Source: Candidatus Roseilinea sp. (GTDB lineage Bacteria; Chloroflexota; Anaerolineae; J036; Brachytrichaceae). From it: 64,000 bases of DNA. The stretch is taken from positions 310,001 through 374,000 of the forward strand of contig BPHV01000003.1 in assembly GCA_026003755.1 (NCBI GenBank), in the 5' to 3' direction. Under the pieces are notes generated by a model. The model did no database searches and had not been told where the DNA came from. It saw nothing but the letters and a program-made list of their open reading frames with translations. Shown here piece after piece: positions 22,301 through 28,587 of this stretch. Position 1 is the first letter of the stretch. Every line of letters starts with the position of its first letter. The position numbers were made by a program, and so were the translations under genes.

Positions 22301-22879
22301 TTAGCTGTGTATATCGAAGGTGACGACACACCGGCCGAATTCGATCCGATCCCCCGGACACAACAGGACGGGCTGGCCGGTTTCGATGCGCGTGCCGTTG
22401 ATCTTCGTCCAGTTCGTCGCCGTGATGCTGACGATTGTGGGCTGATTGCCGGCCGTCAGCATAATGCGCGCGTGTCGTCGTGACACCGTGCGATCCGGAT
22501 CGTACGGCGTCAAATCAATGTCGGGATGAATGGCGTTGACGGGGTCTTCGCGGCCGATCAACCAGGCGTTCGCCGGGTTCGGCGGGAAGTGGATGATTGT
22601 GCCGTTGCTGCTGATGAGCCGCAGCGCGGTGCTCACGACCGGCTCGGCCGGCGGCTGGCCGACGAGATGCACGGGCGCGGTCGGCTGAGGCGACATCGGG
22701 GCGGCTTCGAGCGGCGCGCCGCACTCCCCGCAGAACTTGCTGCCGGCGGGGTTGACGTGTCCGCACCGAGCGCACGTTAAATTGATAGATGTCAGCACCG
22801 GCGGGGATAGGCGCGTCCCGCACCGGTTGCAAAAGTTCGCCCCCTCGGGCTGCTCTGCACCACAATTCGGGCAAATCAT
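22301..22879 (-). CDS. double zinc-ribbon FHA-domain protein
   Basis: 192 residues. Two zinc ribbons sit at the N-terminus: CPNCGAEQ...FCNRCG and CARCGHVN...FCGECG, about residues 3-20 and 36-53. A short linker leads to an FHA domain at about 85-190 with the phospho-threonine-binding loops GRED, TVSRRHARIML and the closing NGTRIE. FHA domains read pThr marks, here presumably laid down by the two kinases encoded directly downstream. Cytoplasmic, with no membrane segment. It is 146 bases after the vWA gene, the largest gap of the lower half of the island, so an internal promoter is possible. Confidence 0.9.
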   Translation of the reverse strand: MICPNCGAEQPEGANFCNRCGTRLSPPVLTSINLTCARCGHVNPAGSKFCGECGAPLEAAPMSPQPTAPVHLVGQPPAEPVVSTALRLISSNGTIIHFPPNPANAWLIGREDPVNAIHPDIDLTPYDPDRTVSRRHARIMLTAGNQPTIVSITATNWTKINGTRIETGQPVLLCPGDRIEFGRCVVTFDIHS

Positions 22880-23025: not shown

Positions 23026-24985
23026 TCACGAGTTCAAGCGTTGCGTCCTCCGGCCTTGTTGAAAGATCAGTTTCGTCATGCCCACTTCGATCTCGGCATC
23101 CTCCGGCAGCAGCGTGCGTGTTTTGATGGGCAGCGGCATGCGATTGACGCGGGTGCCGTTGGCCGTGCCTTCATCGAGGATGTAGAACTGCTGCGTGACG
23201 GGGGTCGCGCGTAATTTGGAAGTGGCGGCTTGAGATGTACGGATCGCTCATCAGCACGACCTCGCACTGGGAGGGATCGCGGCCGACCCATACGGTATCC
23301 GACCCCACCGGTAACGAGGTGCCGGTCATCGGGCCGGATACTACCTTGAGTTCGGCGATTGGCTGGCGGTTCAAGCCCAGTCGCTGCGTGACCATGCGGA
23401 TGCCGCTCTGCACGCCCTTCGACATGTTCGCGCGGAGCACGGCGAATTGATCGCTGTAGCGGCGGTTCATGATGATGAGGGCCACGATCAGGCCGAGCGT
23501 GATGAGCGCTAGGCCGCACAAGCTGGCCGCGAGGGCGGTATTCTGGCGCAGCCACTGGTCGAACGACGGCGCTTCGGTGGGCACGAACGGTATGGCGGGC
23601 ACAGAGGCCACCTGGAGTACGGTGCGCACCGATGGGCTGTTGCTCGTCGTCCCGAGGTACGAATCTGTGGCGACGGCTTGGAAGGCATACGGAAGCGTCT
23701 TGGTCACGACGCTGCGGTCTTCCTTCGGCGGTTGCCAGACCAGCGCGTAAGGGGGGGCGTCCAACCGTCCGATGGACGCGCCGTTGGCGAAGAATTCGAT
23801 GCTTACGTCGCGCGCTCGGCCGTCGGGGAAATCTACCTGCGCAGTGATCGTGATCGGAGGCGCGGGTTCAGCGGTCTCCTGGAAGAAGGTTTCGCCTTCC
23901 AGTGGGGTGAGCAGCCTCACGGTGGGCGGCCGAAGCGCGGACGCAAAGCGCACCTCGGCTGTGTCGCTGCCGAGTTGGGTGTTCACCGTCAGCCGCGCCG
24001 AGTGCTCGCCGGCCGGCCTGATGCTGGTGAAGCGCAAAATGTACTGCGACCGCTGCGAGTCTATGCGGCCGTACAGGGCGCGCAGTTGCTCCTCGGCCTG
24101 CGCCAGCGGCACGCTCGAATCCAATAGCACGTAGCCGCCGTTGGTCTGTGCTGCCAGCGCGCTCATGTTCGTGAATTCGCGCGGGCCGCGCTGGTTGACT
24201 TGCACGGCGAAAATGGAGACGCCGGCTTCGTTGGCCCGCCGCAGGATGTCGCCGCGGATGCCTTCGTCGCTGAATTTGTTGTCGGCGCCGTCGGAGAACA
24301 GCAGGATGATCTTGCGGCGCTGGGCGAGCGCTTCGCGTGTGGGGACGTCGGGGTTGCGCGTCAGCAGGTTGAGCGCTTGGTTGAGTCCATCGAACAACGC
24401 TGAGGTGCGCTCTATCGGTAATCGCGGAATCGCCTCCAACTGGGCGGTGATGGCGCCGAGGTCATTGGTCGGTGGGATGAGCGCGGCGATCTTGTTGTCG
24501 CCCGTGCCGGTGGTGACCACCAGGCCGACGTAGTCCTTGCCGCCACTGTTTGCCGAGATCGCTTGCATGAATTGCTGCGCGACGCGGCGGACGTTCTCGG
24601 TGTTGACCACGTTGTAGTCGCGCGTGTTGTTGAGGCCGGCCAGGTCGGCCACGATGATTGCGCCGATGCCTGCGTTGTCCGATTCGACGTTGGTGATGGG
24701 AATCGGGCTGTTATCGGCCAGGTTGGTGAGCGTGAAGTTCTGCGCCGTCAACCCAGTCGCAGCGCTGCCGTCCGGCCAAACGACCGAGGCTGTAATGGTG
24801 TAGTCCGGGGCGCGCGTGCTGTCCACCTGCTTTACCTCGAGCGTGGGCCCGCCGGTTTGCGCAGCGGCCGGATAAGGCCGGAGCGCGGCGCCAACGATGA
24901 GCGAAGCCAGCGCGGCCATGACGGAAGCACGTTGCCAGGTTAGTAGTTTGAACATCTCCATGTTGCTTTGCGTGAACATCTTCAT
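23026..24985 (-). CDS. vWA-domain membrane protein with cytoplasmic FHA domain, frameshifted at 3' end
   Basis: About 653 residues. A signal peptide (about 14-42, ending YPAAAQ) precedes a region with GIGAIIVADLAGLNN, then a vWA domain whose remaining MIDAS-like elements are SALFDGLNQALNL and RKIILLFSDGADNKFSDEG. Ig-like segments follow (TVRLLTPLEGETFFQ ... RDVSIEFFANGASIG), then a membrane helix at about 488-512, and a cytoplasmic FHA domain (VWVGRDPSQCEVVLMSDPYI, SSRHFQI). A run of five Cs at about 23200 should be four; with that, the frame continues DPVTQQFYILDEGTANGTRV and ends QGRRTQRLNS. The topology puts vWA outside and FHA inside, a receptor-like arrangement. A second Met at 24961 is an equally good start. 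Confidence 0.88.
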
Positions 24986-25120: not shown

Positions 25121-26644
25121 TCACAAGAACCTGCCGATCGCCACGGCGATATTATCCTCGCCCCCATTGGCATTGGCCAGATCTACCAGGCGATCACAGG
25201 CGATTTGTGCATTCGCAGCAAAGGTTAATACATCTCGCATCGCTTCGTCGCGCACCATCTCCCATAGGCCATCGGAGCATACGATCAGCCAATCGCCCGG
25301 CTGCAGGCGCACCGGCTCGTATGCATCGGATACGCCGGTCTTGGGGTCGCCCAACGACCGGTAGATCAGGCTGCGTTCCGGGTGAGTGTAGCGGTCTTCA
25401 TCGCGCAGTATGCCGGCGTCCACCAGCGACTGGACGAGTGAATGGTCCTTCGAGAGGCGGACGAGCGGGCCGTCCTCCTGCGAGCGCCACAGATAGATGC
25501 GGCTGTCGCCGACGTTGCCTAAGTAAGCCTGGTCGTCCACCACCAGGGCGAAGGCGAGCGTGGAGCCCATCTGATTCCCGCGGCGGCTGCCTTCGGCGAC
25601 GATCCGGTCATTGATGTCCTTAACGGTGTGCAGCACCCAGGCGTTGATCTCGGCGGGCGAGCGTGTTGTGCCAGAGGCGAAGAATTGCTGCGCCGCTTCC
25701 ACTAGGGTGCGGATGGCGATCTCGCTGGCGACTTCGCCGGCTTCCACGCCGCCCATGCCGTCGGCGACGGCCAGGAGGATGGGCCTGCGCTGGGGTTTGT
25801 CGTCGCTCGACGGGCCAGGCGTGATCTCGATGGCGCACACGTTGTCCTCGTTTTCGGTGCGCACCAAGCCGGTGCTCGTCGCGTGGCCAAGCTCGGCTTC
25901 CAGGCTGTCGCCACGATGAGCGGCGTCGGCTTGGGCGCGCCGCAGCCCGACCAGCAGCATCGCTGCGCTGATCCGTTCGCGTGGATCGGCTGCCCGGCGC
26001 AGGGCATAACGCACATGCGATTGCGCTTCGACCAGCCGCGTGTGCGCGAGCGCCGCGCACAGTGCGCGCACGTCGGCATATGAGGCGTCAGGGTTGTCCT
26101 CTAACAAAACGAGCGTGCCGAGGTTCCGCCAGTGCGCGCCGCCGGCGTTCACGCCGATGTGCTGCAACACGGCATCGTCATCGGCCAGGCCGAGCGCTAC
26201 GCCGCACTGGTGCAGCGCGTTCAGCCCCTCCACCAATTGTTCGAACCACGCCTCCCACTGTCGCTTTGATTGTTGATTGAGCCAGGCTACGCTCATCAGA
26301 TCCGGCGCGACCACCTCTGGCACATAGTAGCGCACGACGCGATCGAACCAGCCCATCTCGAACATGGGCAACAGCCGCGCCACATAGGGGATCGGCTTTT
26401 GTTGGAGTTGTTCGCTCAGCGTGATGGCGCCGGCGAGGTCGAGCGGCGCCAGCCCTTCGTGCAACAAGAGGCGCGCCGATCCATCCGACACGATGGCCTC
26501 GTAGGTGCGCGATCGGCTGTTTGCCGGCGAGCCTTCGGCGAACGCAGTGATGATGTACGACGTGTGGCGCGTCGCGTCGGTCACGTATTCACCGATCGGC
26601 AGCGGATCGGAAGCTGTGGAGAGTGTGGCAGTCGAAAGAGTCAT
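25121..26644 (-). CDS. pseudokinase-PP2C fusion, Ser/Thr phosphatase
   Basis: 507 residues in two parts. The C-terminal part (about 255-507) is a complete PP2C phosphatase: RTENEDNV, LAVADGMGGVEAGE, MGSTLAFALV, LGNVGDSRIYLW, LIVCSDGLWEMV and GGEDNIAVAIG, with all metal-binding Asp in place. The N-terminal part (about 20-220) has the outline of a kinase C-lobe (EQLVEGLNALHQCGVALGLADDD, NLGTLVLLEDNPDASYADVRALCAAL) but no catalytic Lys, HRD or DFG, so I read it as a pseudokinase; that part is inference. The start overlaps the previous gene by four bases (ATGA), so the two are coupled. It should reverse the kinases of the same island. Confidence 0.9.
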   Translation of the reverse strand: MTLSTATLSTASDPLPIGEYVTDATRHTSYIITAFAEGSPANSRSRTYEAIVSDGSARLLLHEGLAPLDLAGAITLSEQLQQKPIPYVARLLPMFEMGWFDRVVRYYVPEVVAPDLMSVAWLNQQSKRQWEAWFEQLVEGLNALHQCGVALGLADDDAVLQHIGVNAGGAHWRNLGTLVLLEDNPDASYADVRALCAALAHTRLVEAQSHVRYALRRAADPRERISAAMLLVGLRRAQADAAHRGDSLEAELGHATSTGLVRTENEDNVCAIEITPGPSSDDKPQRRPILLAVADGMGGVEAGEVASEIAIRTLVEAAQQFFASGTTRSPAEINAWVLHTVKDINDRIVAEGSRRGNQMGSTLAFALVVDDQAYLGNVGDSRIYLWRSQEDGPLVRLSKDHSLVQSLVDAGILRDEDRYTHPERSLIYRSLGDPKTGVSDAYEPVRLQPGDWLIVCSDGLWEMVRDEAMRDVLTFAANAQIACDRLVDLANANGGEDNIAVAIGRFL

Positions 26645-27069
26645 CTGGGACGCATCACCCGCTCATTTTGCAACACGAACTGGAAGACGGCTTGCTGAGA
26701 CTTGCCCAGCGAGATAGTCGCGCCGGAGCGCAAGCGATTGTGGCGTGAGCGCCGGCCGTCCACGAACATGTGTTCACCTTCGACCAGACGCGCCTCCCAT
26801 ACGCCATCTGACGCGCGGAAGATCTCAGCATGATCCTCGGCCAGATCGGCCACTGACTTGCCGGTGATGCGGTACCACGACGTGCGACCGAGGCGAATCG
26901 GCTCGGTCAGCGGGAAGCGCTTGCCGCCGATCACCAGATAAGCCGAAGGTGTCCTGGGCGCGCGGCGGCGTGAGAACAAGCCGAACAGGCCGGCCAGGCC
27001 GCCGATTCCGAGGAGCGCTGCATCGGCGCAGGTGGCAACAACGTCGTATAGCGGGAAGGGAGCGTTCAT
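26641..27069 (-). CDS. FHA-domain protein with N-terminal membrane anchor
   Basis: 142 residues. A hydrophobic stretch at about 8-32 (VVATCADAALLGIGGLAGLFGL) followed by RRRAPR suggests an anchor with the rest inside the cell. The FHA domain covers about 44-140: RLGRTSWYRI, EDHAEIFRASDGVWEARL, DGRRSRHNRLRSGATISLG. The usual SxxH is replaced by EDH, so the phospho-peptide grip may be altered. ATGA overlaps join it to the genes on both sides (27066-27069 and 26641-26644), so all three are translated together. Confidence 0.85.
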   Translation of the reverse strand: MNAPFPLYDVVATCADAALLGIGGLAGLFGLFSRRRAPRTPSAYLVIGGKRFPLTEPIRLGRTSWYRITGKSVADLAEDHAEIFRASDGVWEARLVEGEHMFVDGRRSRHNRLRSGATISLGKSQQAVFQFVLQNERVMRPR

Positions 27070-27761
27070 TTGTGGGATGCTCTGCCGAGGATGCTGCTCA
27101 CGAACGAGCGCTGTGGGCCGAAGACGATTGCTCCCAGGGCGCCTTGCGCGCCTTGCTCCTTCGCCATCGCCAGCAAGCGTTGGACGGCGCCCTGCGGGTT
27201 GCGCGAATACACGGTCAGCGCAATGTCATATTCATCGAGCTTTTCGCTCACCGAAGACGTGCAAATCAATAGGCTGTCCGCCGGCTCCAGCTTGCGCTGG
27301 GCGGTGGGTTCCATGCGGATGACGTCAATGCGACCGCTGGCCTGGATGCAGTAGCAGCGAATCGCGCCGACGCCGATACCATACCATTGATTGCCGACCA
27401 CAGCAGCGATCACCATCGGCATGTGCGTCGGCGCGTCGGCGTCTTTCGACTGGCGCTTGAGCATCCGGTTCGCTTTGTCGAGCGTGGCGCGCAGGGCGAT
27501 GAGCCGATCTACGTCGGGCGGAACTTCTTCATAGGCCTGGCGGATTTGTTCTATCAAGCTCTGGCCGGCGAGCGACGCGCCGCTGGCATCGGCGAGGGCC
27601 ATCAACAGCCCGCGCTGGGTTGAACTGGCAGCCTGGGCGTCGGGGTGTGGGCCTAATGGGTAAACGGCGGCGCCGGCTGCCCCACCGAATGCGCTCCGGG
27701 CCGGCTGCCCGCCGGAGCGCAGTCGTACGCGGAATTTATCGAGCGTCTGTCGGCTGAACAC
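27066..27761 (-). CDS. PP2C-like protein lacking metal-binding residues (putative pseudophosphatase)
   Basis: 231 residues, no signal. The last 120 residues line up with the second half of PP2C: MPMVIAAVVGNQWYGIGVGA-IRCYCI where active enzymes have GDSRxY, then LEPADSLLICTSSVSEKLDE for LxPGDxLLxCSDGLxE, and LLAMAKEQGAQGALGAIVF for the LAxxxGxxDNxxVxV end. The Asp of GDS, SDG and DN are replaced by A, S and A, so it should not hold the two metals. This assignment is mine from reading the pattern and is moderately sure. It is the first gene of the tightly overlapping trio and may be a binding scaffold or decoy for the PP2C encoded two genes on. Confidence 0.6.
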   Translation of the reverse strand: MFSRQTLDKFRVRLRSGGQPARSAFGGAAGAAVYPLGPHPDAQAASSTQRGLLMALADASGASLAGQSLIEQIRQAYEEVPPDVDRLIALRATLDKANRMLKRQSKDADAPTHMPMVIAAVVGNQWYGIGVGAIRCYCIQASGRIDVIRMEPTAQRKLEPADSLLICTSSVSEKLDEYDIALTVYSRNPQGAVQRLLAMAKEQGAQGALGAIVFGPQRSFVSSILGRASHK

Positions 27762-27825: not shown

Positions 27826-28587
27826 TTATAGGAACAGCTCCTCGCTTGTCCCGCGCACGTCCAACTCGAACTCGACCTCCTGGATGGGCGGCTTGCTATA
27901 CATCCAGTGCAAGCCGTAGTGCCCTGCCGGACCGATGCGGGCGAAGACCGCCTCGTCGAGATAGCCGCCCTCTACGTGCGCGGTGTAGAGATTGATCTGC
28001 GTCGCATCGTCCCAAGTCGCTCCCAGCGCCTTCAAAGTTCCCTCGATGGACGCCATGACGAATTTGGCTTTCTCGCGCATGGCATCGGGTGTGGTCTCGC
28101 CGACGCGCACGATGGACTCGCGGGTGGGTGGGCCGTCTTTCAATTCGCCGGCGCCGGAGACGATGAACGCTTTGCGATCGTCGGCGCGCGTCCGCGGCGC
28201 GGTGTAGGTAAACGCGAACAGCCCAGGTTCGCTTGGGGCGATGGCTGCCGGGAGCGGTGCGACGTTGGTGCGGGTCATCGTCGCGCGCCCATCCTGACGC
28301 AGCGCGTACTGGTCGAGCAGGGCGATATAGGTTTTGTTGAACGCGCCGAAGCCTTCGAAGGTGAGCGGCTGCGGCACGCGCACCTCGGCGCCGCACAGCG
28401 CGGCCATCGGCCGGCCGACGCTTTCCAGGTGGCGTCGTATAGCCTCGAACGCCTGGGCGACCGGTATCACACGGCGGAAGGTGGCGTGAACCAACACGAA
28501 GCCGGCGTCGGCCCGCACGCCGCGGCAGAAGGCGCCGCCGCCTTCGAGATAGGAGAAGTTGCCTTCGGGTCTGTGGATCATGGACAC
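27826..28587 (-). CDS. RidA/YjgF-like family protein
   Basis: 253 residues, about twice the length of a single RidA. The C-terminal part shows the YjgF-type strand-helix pattern FIVSGAGELKDG, RVGETTPDAMREKAKFVMAS, IEGTLKALGATWDDATQINLYTAH. The first half (FVLVHATFRRVIPVAQAFEAI) could be a second, degenerate copy; this two-copy layout also resembles the chorismatase-like branch. The deaminase Arg of RidA is not obvious. It begins the reverse-strand block of catabolic-looking genes downstream of the oxidoreductase at 28674, with an 86-base gap. Substrate unknown. Confidence 0.6.
   Translation of the reverse strand: MSMIHRPEGNFSYLEGGGAFCRGVRADAGFVLVHATFRRVIPVAQAFEAIRRHLESVGRPMAALCGAEVRVPQPLTFEGFGAFNKTYIALLDQYALRQDGRATMTRTNVAPLPAAIAPSEPGLFAFTYTAPRTRADDRKAFIVSGAGELKDGPPTRESIVRVGETTPDAMREKAKFVMASIEGTLKALGATWDDATQINLYTAHVEGGYLDEAVFARIGPAGHYGLHWMYSKPPIQEVEFELDVRGTSEELFL

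Follow-up and report, generated by a model that had tools for sequence, protein, structure and literature searches.

A predicted pseudophosphatase of the PP2C fold, probably kept for regulation, heads a signalling island in Candidatus Roseilinea

Introduction

Pseudokinases that regulate live kinases are textbook material. The same cannot, to our knowledge, be said of pseudophosphatases that control live phosphatases sharing their fold, and we know of few dead PP2C domains in bacteria beyond that of RssB.

The mechanistic starting point for such a pairing lies in PP2C dimerization. In SpoIIE, helices α1 and α2 form a switch that is moved by dimerization to complete the metal site, and they provide the dimer and activation face; the M1 and M2 ligands are three Asp residues and a Gly carbonyl, and RssB, TAB1 and similar pseudo-PP2Cs have been proposed to reuse the switch for binding (excerpts of PMC5468089). 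Similar dimer contacts have been noted for RssB and SiaA (excerpt of PMC8080068), and a single residual metal has been reported for PHLPP2 and TAB1 (excerpt of PMC12002173).

Here we analyse a gene of the hot-spring bacterium Candidatus Roseilinea sp. for which a PP2C pseudophosphatase had been predicted from the sequence, and compare it with these systems.

Results

A seven-gene island headed by the pseudo-PP2C gene

The window, that is, the whole stretch of 64,000 nucleotides analysed here, belongs to a genome of 3.34 Mb in 5 contigs whose nearest named relative is Candidatus Roseilinea sp. NK_OTU-006 (93–94% identity). Seven genes on the same strand make up the island. The pseudo-PP2C gene comes first and is followed by genes for an FHA protein, a PP2C fusion, a vWA-FHA protein, a zinc-ribbon FHA protein and two Ser/Thr kinases:

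27066..27761, minus strand: pseudo-PP2C gene, 231 aa, GTG start
26641..27069, minus strand: head FHA gene, with an N-terminal hydrophobic segment (aa 10–32, by hydropathy) and a degenerate FHA domain
25910..26644, minus strand: N-terminal domain of the fusion, a probable pseudokinase with Lys, HRD and DFG replaced
25121..25882, minus strand: intact PP2C domain of the fusion, NF033484 E 6.8e-59
23029..24985, minus strand: vWA-FHA membrane protein, TM segment at aa 482–510, frame broken near 23200 in the assembly
22301..22879, minus strand: zinc-ribbon FHA protein, Pfam FHA E 4.6e-13, canonical FHA residues
20951..22243, minus strand: Ser/Thr kinase 1, Pfam Pkinase E 9.7e-37, YRD and DFG present, one TM segment
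18836..20809, minus strand: Ser/Thr kinase 2, Pfam Pkinase E 1.3e-33, one TM segment

The pseudo-PP2C gene overlaps the head FHA gene (26641–27069) by 4 bases, and the whole fusion gene spans 25121–26644. On the upstream side, a same-strand gene with a weak RidA-like (L-PSP) match (27826–28587) stops 64 bases short of the pseudo-PP2C start, and several relatives have a similar gene in this position. Further down the island, the vWA-FHA open reading frame (23171–24985) stops at 604 aa, compared with 650 aa in the orthologue at locus L031, and the rest of its FHA domain lies in another frame. Either an error in the assembly or a recent frameshift could explain the break near 23200. A role for the island in anti-phage defence was considered and rejected: PADLOC returned no match for the pseudo-PP2C, head FHA, fusion, vWA-FHA or zinc-ribbon FHA proteins, and only the two island kinases matched, to the kinase models of that library.

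A predicted PP2C fold with a degenerate catalytic site

The original prediction had placed the strings GVGAIRCYCI, LLICTSSVSE and GAQGALGAIVF where active PP2Cs carry GDSR, SDG and (E)DN. All three strings are present in the translation of the 27066–27761 open reading frame, and profile–profile alignment to the neighbouring PP2C puts them in exactly that register (E 1.2e-5, probability 81%). BLASTP against the same neighbour aligned the C-terminal part of the protein, again in this register (E 2e-5). Searches with PP2C-family profiles gave a divided answer: the NCBIfam Stp1/IreP model NF033484 matched the protein at E 4.2e-8, but with only 33 bits against a cut-off of 230. The same model matches 7 of the 11 aligned pseudo-PP2C members at E 1 or better, and Pfam found no PP2C domain in the protein.

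An AlphaFold2 model was built from 11 sequences, the window's own and 10 from named genomes (11 of the 12 known orthologues). This model had a mean pLDDT of 74.2 and a pTM of 0.70. Its best Foldseek matches were tPphA, PstP, PppA and MsPP (best E 2.0e-10, TMq about 0.6), and VIA-align paired it with cyanobacterial tPphA at Z 18.4 (rmsd 3.0, 180 aligned). The predicted structure (pLDDT 74) displays the α-β-β-α sandwich of the PP2C/PPM superfamily, so the claim that the fold is kept agrees with both structural searches, and we take the protein to have a PP2C fold on the basis of this model. A model lacking the sandwich, the outcome named in the original prediction as its refutation, was thus not what we obtained.

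The catalytic site presents a different picture. Four places are relevant:

27588..27590, minus strand: codon for D58, at the ADGxGG metal-Asp place (ALADASG); still Asp here
27357..27368, minus strand: GAIR replacing GDSR; Asp lost, with A/T/E/R/S and never D in 12 of 12 orthologues (profile–profile alignment)
27252..27260, minus strand: TSS replacing SDG; Asp lost, with S/A/P/K/G and never D in 12 of 12 orthologues (profile–profile and BLASTP alignments)
27138..27146, minus strand: QGA replacing (E)DN; Asp lost, with G/E/R and never D in 12 of 12 orthologues (profile–profile alignment)

Inspection of these metal-ligand columns supports the predicted loss of catalysis as far as the alignments can tell, and the protein lacks the Asp set in GDSR, SDG and DN that characterizes Stp1/PstP-type enzymes. 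The accompanying statement that all three metal Asp positions are changed holds for these motifs, but it had left the ADGxGG Asp unlisted, which is kept as D58. Every genus member but G007 keeps this Asp (8 of 9) and none of the 3 sister-genus genomes does, which gives 8 of 12 orthologues overall, and the Gly that follows it in ADGxGG is replaced in all 12. D41, which lies roughly at the place of the NED Asp, is Asp throughout the genus (9 of 9) and in none of the 3 sister-genus genomes. Among the places that match the M1 and M2 ligands of SpoIIE, only one Asp is left. Judged from these residues, a dinuclear metal centre should not form; with D58 and D41 still present in almost every genus member, one bound metal is possible, by analogy with PHLPP2 and TAB1.

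The loss extends beyond the metal site. The Asp positions of GDSR and SDG are 36 residues apart in the pseudo-PP2C and 78 in the active neighbour, which shortens the flap region by about 42 residues; the flap subdomain normally found between these two motifs is absent, and the GxxR...NED region is unrecognisable. With the dinuclear site and the flap region both apparently gone, it is highly likely that the product of 27066–27761 is a true pseudophosphatase, unable to work as a PP2C.

The original prediction had suggested that the protein may titrate or target the neighbouring PP2C. These losses also bear on the first of these ideas, taken as a substrate trap or titrator that keeps a PP2C-like substrate surface with which it would shield phosphoproteins from the neighbouring phosphatase. 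It has the same fold and sits in the same operon as the active PP2C, and PHLPP2 has been suggested to keep substrate binding after loss of activity (excerpt of PMC12002173). However, the flap region, which aids substrate binding, is deleted, GxxR...NED cannot be recognised, and the columns of the former active site are free to vary. As both the flap and the metal/phosphate site, which would hold a substrate, have been lost, we regard titration as improbable.

A live PP2C, a degenerate FHA domain and a probable pseudokinase

An active PP2C had been placed two genes away, and this is what the locus contains: the pseudo-PP2C, then the FHA protein, then the fusion with its intact motif set. The PP2C domain of the fusion keeps NED, ADGMGG, GDSR, SDG (TDG in one row) and EDN in all aligned rows, and VIA-align pairs the fusion with the S. 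agalactiae phosphatase at Z 30.2. At E 1e-5, 6 of the 12 carrier genomes, the window genome included, have no Stp1-type PP2C other than the fusion. In one relative (L037 8719–10317), a short tandem array of ASPG units is inserted into this PP2C domain ahead of ADGMGG.

The original prediction had missed that the neighbouring FHA domain is degenerate as well, and probably the N-terminal domain of the fusion too. In the phospho-Thr pocket of FHA domains, the key residues are an Arg, the Ser of SxxH and the Asn of SxNG. The head FHA protein keeps the Arg of GR; the SxxH Ser is replaced by Ala, Val or Glu and the SxNG Asn by Glu (4 of 4 rows, aligned to the island's other FHA proteins), and neither Ser nor Asn occurs in these columns in any of the 9 rows of the head-FHA alignment. 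Two of the three pocket residues are thus lost in the head FHA protein, while the zinc-ribbon FHA and vWA-FHA proteins keep both the Ser and the Asn. The assignment of 26641–27069 to the FHA family rests on its Pfam match (19.4 bits, cut-off 20.7; 9 of 9 members match) and on the alignment to the island's FHA proteins; a profile search against solved structures returned unrelated chance matches at best (E 0.5 or worse).

In the N-terminal domain of the fusion, Pfam detected no kinase domain in 10 of 10 members, the model of aa 1–245 is of low confidence (pLDDT about 33–70 by block), and VIA-align of the whole fusion gave only PP2Cs among the matches listed. Compared directly by profile, the domain gave a weak match to the island kinases (probability 2.9%, E 0.016), and a search of solved structures gave one weak match, the Ser/Thr kinase 9bf3_A (E 0.048). 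The kinase-like reading comes only via intermediate fusions of distant families: a profile of the N-terminal 245 residues matches kinase-like–PP2C fusions of such families at E 3e-5, the N-termini of these fusions match Pfam kinase models weakly (best E 4.4e-4, range 4e-4 to 4e-3), and one of them aligns collinearly with a kinase structure (E 0.03). Aligned through these intermediates, aa 1–245 lack the β3 Lys, HRD and DFG, and the domain is probably a pseudokinase.

Three proteins from distant Anaerolineae (L121 1138–2841, L122 356–2269 and L123 550–2247) join a zinc-ribbon or Cys-rich segment, a kinase-like part and a PP2C in a single chain, and their kinase parts also seem to be without the HRD and DFG residues.

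Distribution and gene order in two genera

Orthologues of the pseudo-PP2C were found in 12 of the 28 genomes of the order/family: in every genome of the window's genus (9 of 9) and of the sister genus (3 of 3), and in 0 of 16 others. A profile search of 400 genomes of the phylum at E 1e-8 matched 5 genomes, all in these two genera. Across 396 genomes of the class, the same profile gave no match at E 1e-8 beyond the two genera; the next best matches started at 9.2e-8 and, from those of the frames that were read, look like ordinary PP2Cs in longer frames. Both searches scored no more than the top few candidates of each genome. The class-wide search likewise returned no pseudo-PP2C of this family in the distant Anaerolineae genomes that carry zinc-ribbon/kinase-like/PP2C fusions.

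All 12 carriers of the pseudo-PP2C also have the head FHA gene and the pseudokinase domain, and both are present in one more genome, G027 (75% complete), from another genus. There (L098 5219–6820), the FHA and pseudokinase genes are present with no pseudo-PP2C upstream and the contig ends at this point; a zinc ribbon precedes the pseudokinase.

All genus loci that were read share one order, with the pseudo-PP2C first, then the FHA gene and then the fusion. The pseudo-PP2C gene lies directly upstream of the FHA and fusion genes in each of the 9 genus members and in G022 of the sister genus, and in G022 a nagZ-like gene, the pseudo-PP2C, the FHA gene, the fusion and the rest of the operon stand in one row. 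In the other two sister-genus genomes, G010 and G017, the pseudo-PP2C follows the nagZ-like gene on its own, and the other operon genes, all of them retained, lie on another contig. This separation may reflect a single rearrangement. That the gene was kept after being parted from its operon argues for a function.

In all three sister-genus genomes, the pseudo-PP2C (L039 6983–7621, L038 8884–9543 and L040 7886–8548) directly follows a gene for a glycoside hydrolase, which we take, naming it by eye, to be nagZ-like and to belong to cell-wall recycling. This neighbour is a possible functional hint.

As an alternative to regulation of the neighbouring phosphatase, the pseudo-PP2C could be an adaptor in the style of RssB or TAB1 that binds some other client, such as an island kinase, a cell-wall enzyme or a regulator, and has no control over the neighbouring PP2C. 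Dead PP2C domains have precedents as protein-binding modules in RssB and TAB1 (excerpts of PMC7226468 and PMC5468089), and the nagZ-like gene in front of all three sister-genus copies indicates that the gene need not be linked to the PP2C operon; in 2 of 3 sister-genus genomes, the protein is no longer encoded beside its proposed partner. Against this stand the conserved position directly upstream of the FHA and fusion genes in ten genomes and the finding that the pseudo-PP2C occurs only in genomes with the FHA and pseudokinase–PP2C genes (12 of 12), a co-occurrence that covers only two genera and hence few independent events. We consider an adaptor for another client somewhat unlikely.

We also tried the idea that the pseudo-PP2C arose by duplication of the neighbouring PP2C, which gained no support from a tree of 28 PP2C domains, with no sister relation between them. 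In this tree, 8 pseudo-PP2Cs form one long-branch clade and the fused PP2Cs another, supported group; the long branches make the deep placement unreliable.

Purifying selection and a conserved helix hinge

All 12 copies of the pseudo-PP2C gene are open, full length and without internal stops, down to 30% identity. Mean dN/dS, averaged over the genus pairs with dS under 1.5, was 0.222 for the pseudo-PP2C (29 of 36 pairs), 0.177 for the head FHA (34 of 36), 0.108 for the N-terminal domain of the fusion (29 of 36), 0.103 for its PP2C domain (31 of 36) and 0.069 for kinase 1 (36 of 36). The pseudo-PP2C thus evolves about twice as fast as the active domain, as might a decaying gene or a functionless open reading frame. 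Yet its dN/dS is far below 1, the reading frame is preserved in every copy, and 27 alignment columns are invariant; neither dN/dS values near 1 nor frameshifts were seen in independent relatives. Decay is hardly credible on these data. A PP2C fold, no catalytic metal set and maintenance by selection together suggest that the protein belongs with RssB- and TAB1-like pseudo-PP2Cs.

The regulatory meaning claimed in the original prediction gains support from these results in an indirect way, through purifying selection, co-occurrence with the FHA and PP2C-fusion genes, and retention after relocation. Taken together, we infer that the pseudo-PP2C is probably kept under selection as a non-catalytic regulatory subunit.

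Within the protein, one segment stands out:

27486..27521, minus strand: PPDVDRLIALRA (aa 81–92), the α1–α2 hinge; densest cluster of invariant residues

Residues 77–97 hold 10 of the 27 invariant columns, which makes this the densest 21-residue stretch (permutation p 0.0008), with the motif PPDxDRxxALRA; in the model, helices run from aa 63 to 79 and from aa 86 to 104. When the same 8 genomes are compared, 17 of 18 catalytic-motif columns are invariant in the active PP2C domain versus 1 of 18 in the pseudo-PP2C, and from late α1 to early α2 the pseudo-PP2C has 10 of 26 columns invariant versus 5 of 37 in the active domain; as the hinge segment was picked after the invariant residues had been seen, Fisher values for these contrasts are descriptive and only the permutation p allows for the choice. 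Conservation is inverted between the two proteins: the active PP2C keeps its catalytic motifs and the pseudo-PP2C keeps the α1–α2 hinge.

Charged invariant residues gathered in one place could also mark a repurposed enzyme, with a new active site built into the PP2C fold, for example around the conserved D83, D85, R86 and R91. However, judged from the order of elements in the model, the cluster would sit on a helix hinge instead of lining a pocket, and we recognised no known catalytic motif in it, which leaves a new enzyme a very slim prospect. A conserved surface on the α1–α2 hinge, away from the active site, fits docking of a partner.

Discussion

Combining the switch role of α1 and α2 in SpoIIE with the conserved hinge of the pseudo-PP2C, we tentatively propose that this protein is a non-catalytic regulatory subunit of the PP2C/pseudokinase unit that docks via its α1–α2 hinge, a statement that, taken as a whole, we hold with less than even confidence. 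The hinge would bind the pseudokinase–PP2C protein encoded two genes downstream, in a manner resembling the protomer–protomer pairing of PP2Cs through their switch helices, and the pseudo-PP2C would thereby set the activity or the location of the fused phosphatase. The site of action would probably be the membrane, together with the hydrophobic-tailed FHA protein encoded between the two. The remainder of the signalling island would consist of the kinases, the vWA receptor and those FHA proteins that are intact.

A bolder version, which we think rather unlikely, is that the first three genes of the island specify a regulatory assembly in which a degenerate phosphatase, a degenerate FHA protein and a degenerate kinase surround one live PP2C, with the pseudo-PP2C pairing with the live PP2C through the switch helices. 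If true, such a heterodimer of pseudo- and active phosphatase would be the phosphatase counterpart of pseudokinase–kinase pairs, and the live PP2C at its centre is often the sole Stp1-type enzyme of the cell. The genes for a dead PP2C, for its living relative and for their probable partners lie side by side in a small genome, and the conservation signature marks the surface to mutate. Should the pairing be real, the locus would offer a simple system for how PP2C switch helices are controlled in trans.

Several described proteins share parts of this design. The best structural matches of the pseudo-PP2C model are tPphA, the S. agalactiae phosphatase and PstP (Z 18.4, 17.8 and 17.3); tPphA, PstP and Stp1 have the metal Asp residues and the flap, whereas the pseudo-PP2C is without the three Asp and the flap region. 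Distant Anaerolineae fusions of a zinc ribbon, a kinase-like part and a PP2C (partial match to PRK14559/NF011149) have the same kinase-like–PP2C order as the neighbouring fusion. TAB1 is likewise an inactive PP2C fold that serves as a non-catalytic subunit of a kinase pathway (2pop_A, VIA-align Z 14.3), but it is a eukaryotic (animal) pseudophosphatase. It binds TAK1 through a region outside its PP2C domain.

By fold order, the α1–α2 switch helices of SpoIIE and RsbU match the most conserved region of the pseudo-PP2C (excerpts of PMC5468089 and PMC8080068). SpoIIE is an active homodimeric phosphatase, whereas for the pseudo-PP2C a heterodimer with an active enzyme is only proposed. The C-terminal domain of RssB is likewise a bacterial PP2C fold without catalytic residues, in which one of three Asp is kept (excerpt of PMC7226468). 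RssB differs in being fused to a receiver domain and in delivering sigma-S to ClpXP, whereas the pseudo-PP2C is free-standing in an FHA–PP2C–kinase operon; RssB is absent from the best 50 VIA-align matches of the pseudo-PP2C model. In the open-licence literature searched, RssB was the one bacterial pseudo-PP2C that we found, and no paper described an operon of pseudo-PP2C, FHA and fusion genes. Bacterial pseudo-PP2Cs are known from RssB (excerpt of PMC7226468); what appears new here is a free-standing one encoded beside a live PP2C, a degenerate FHA protein and a probable pseudokinase.
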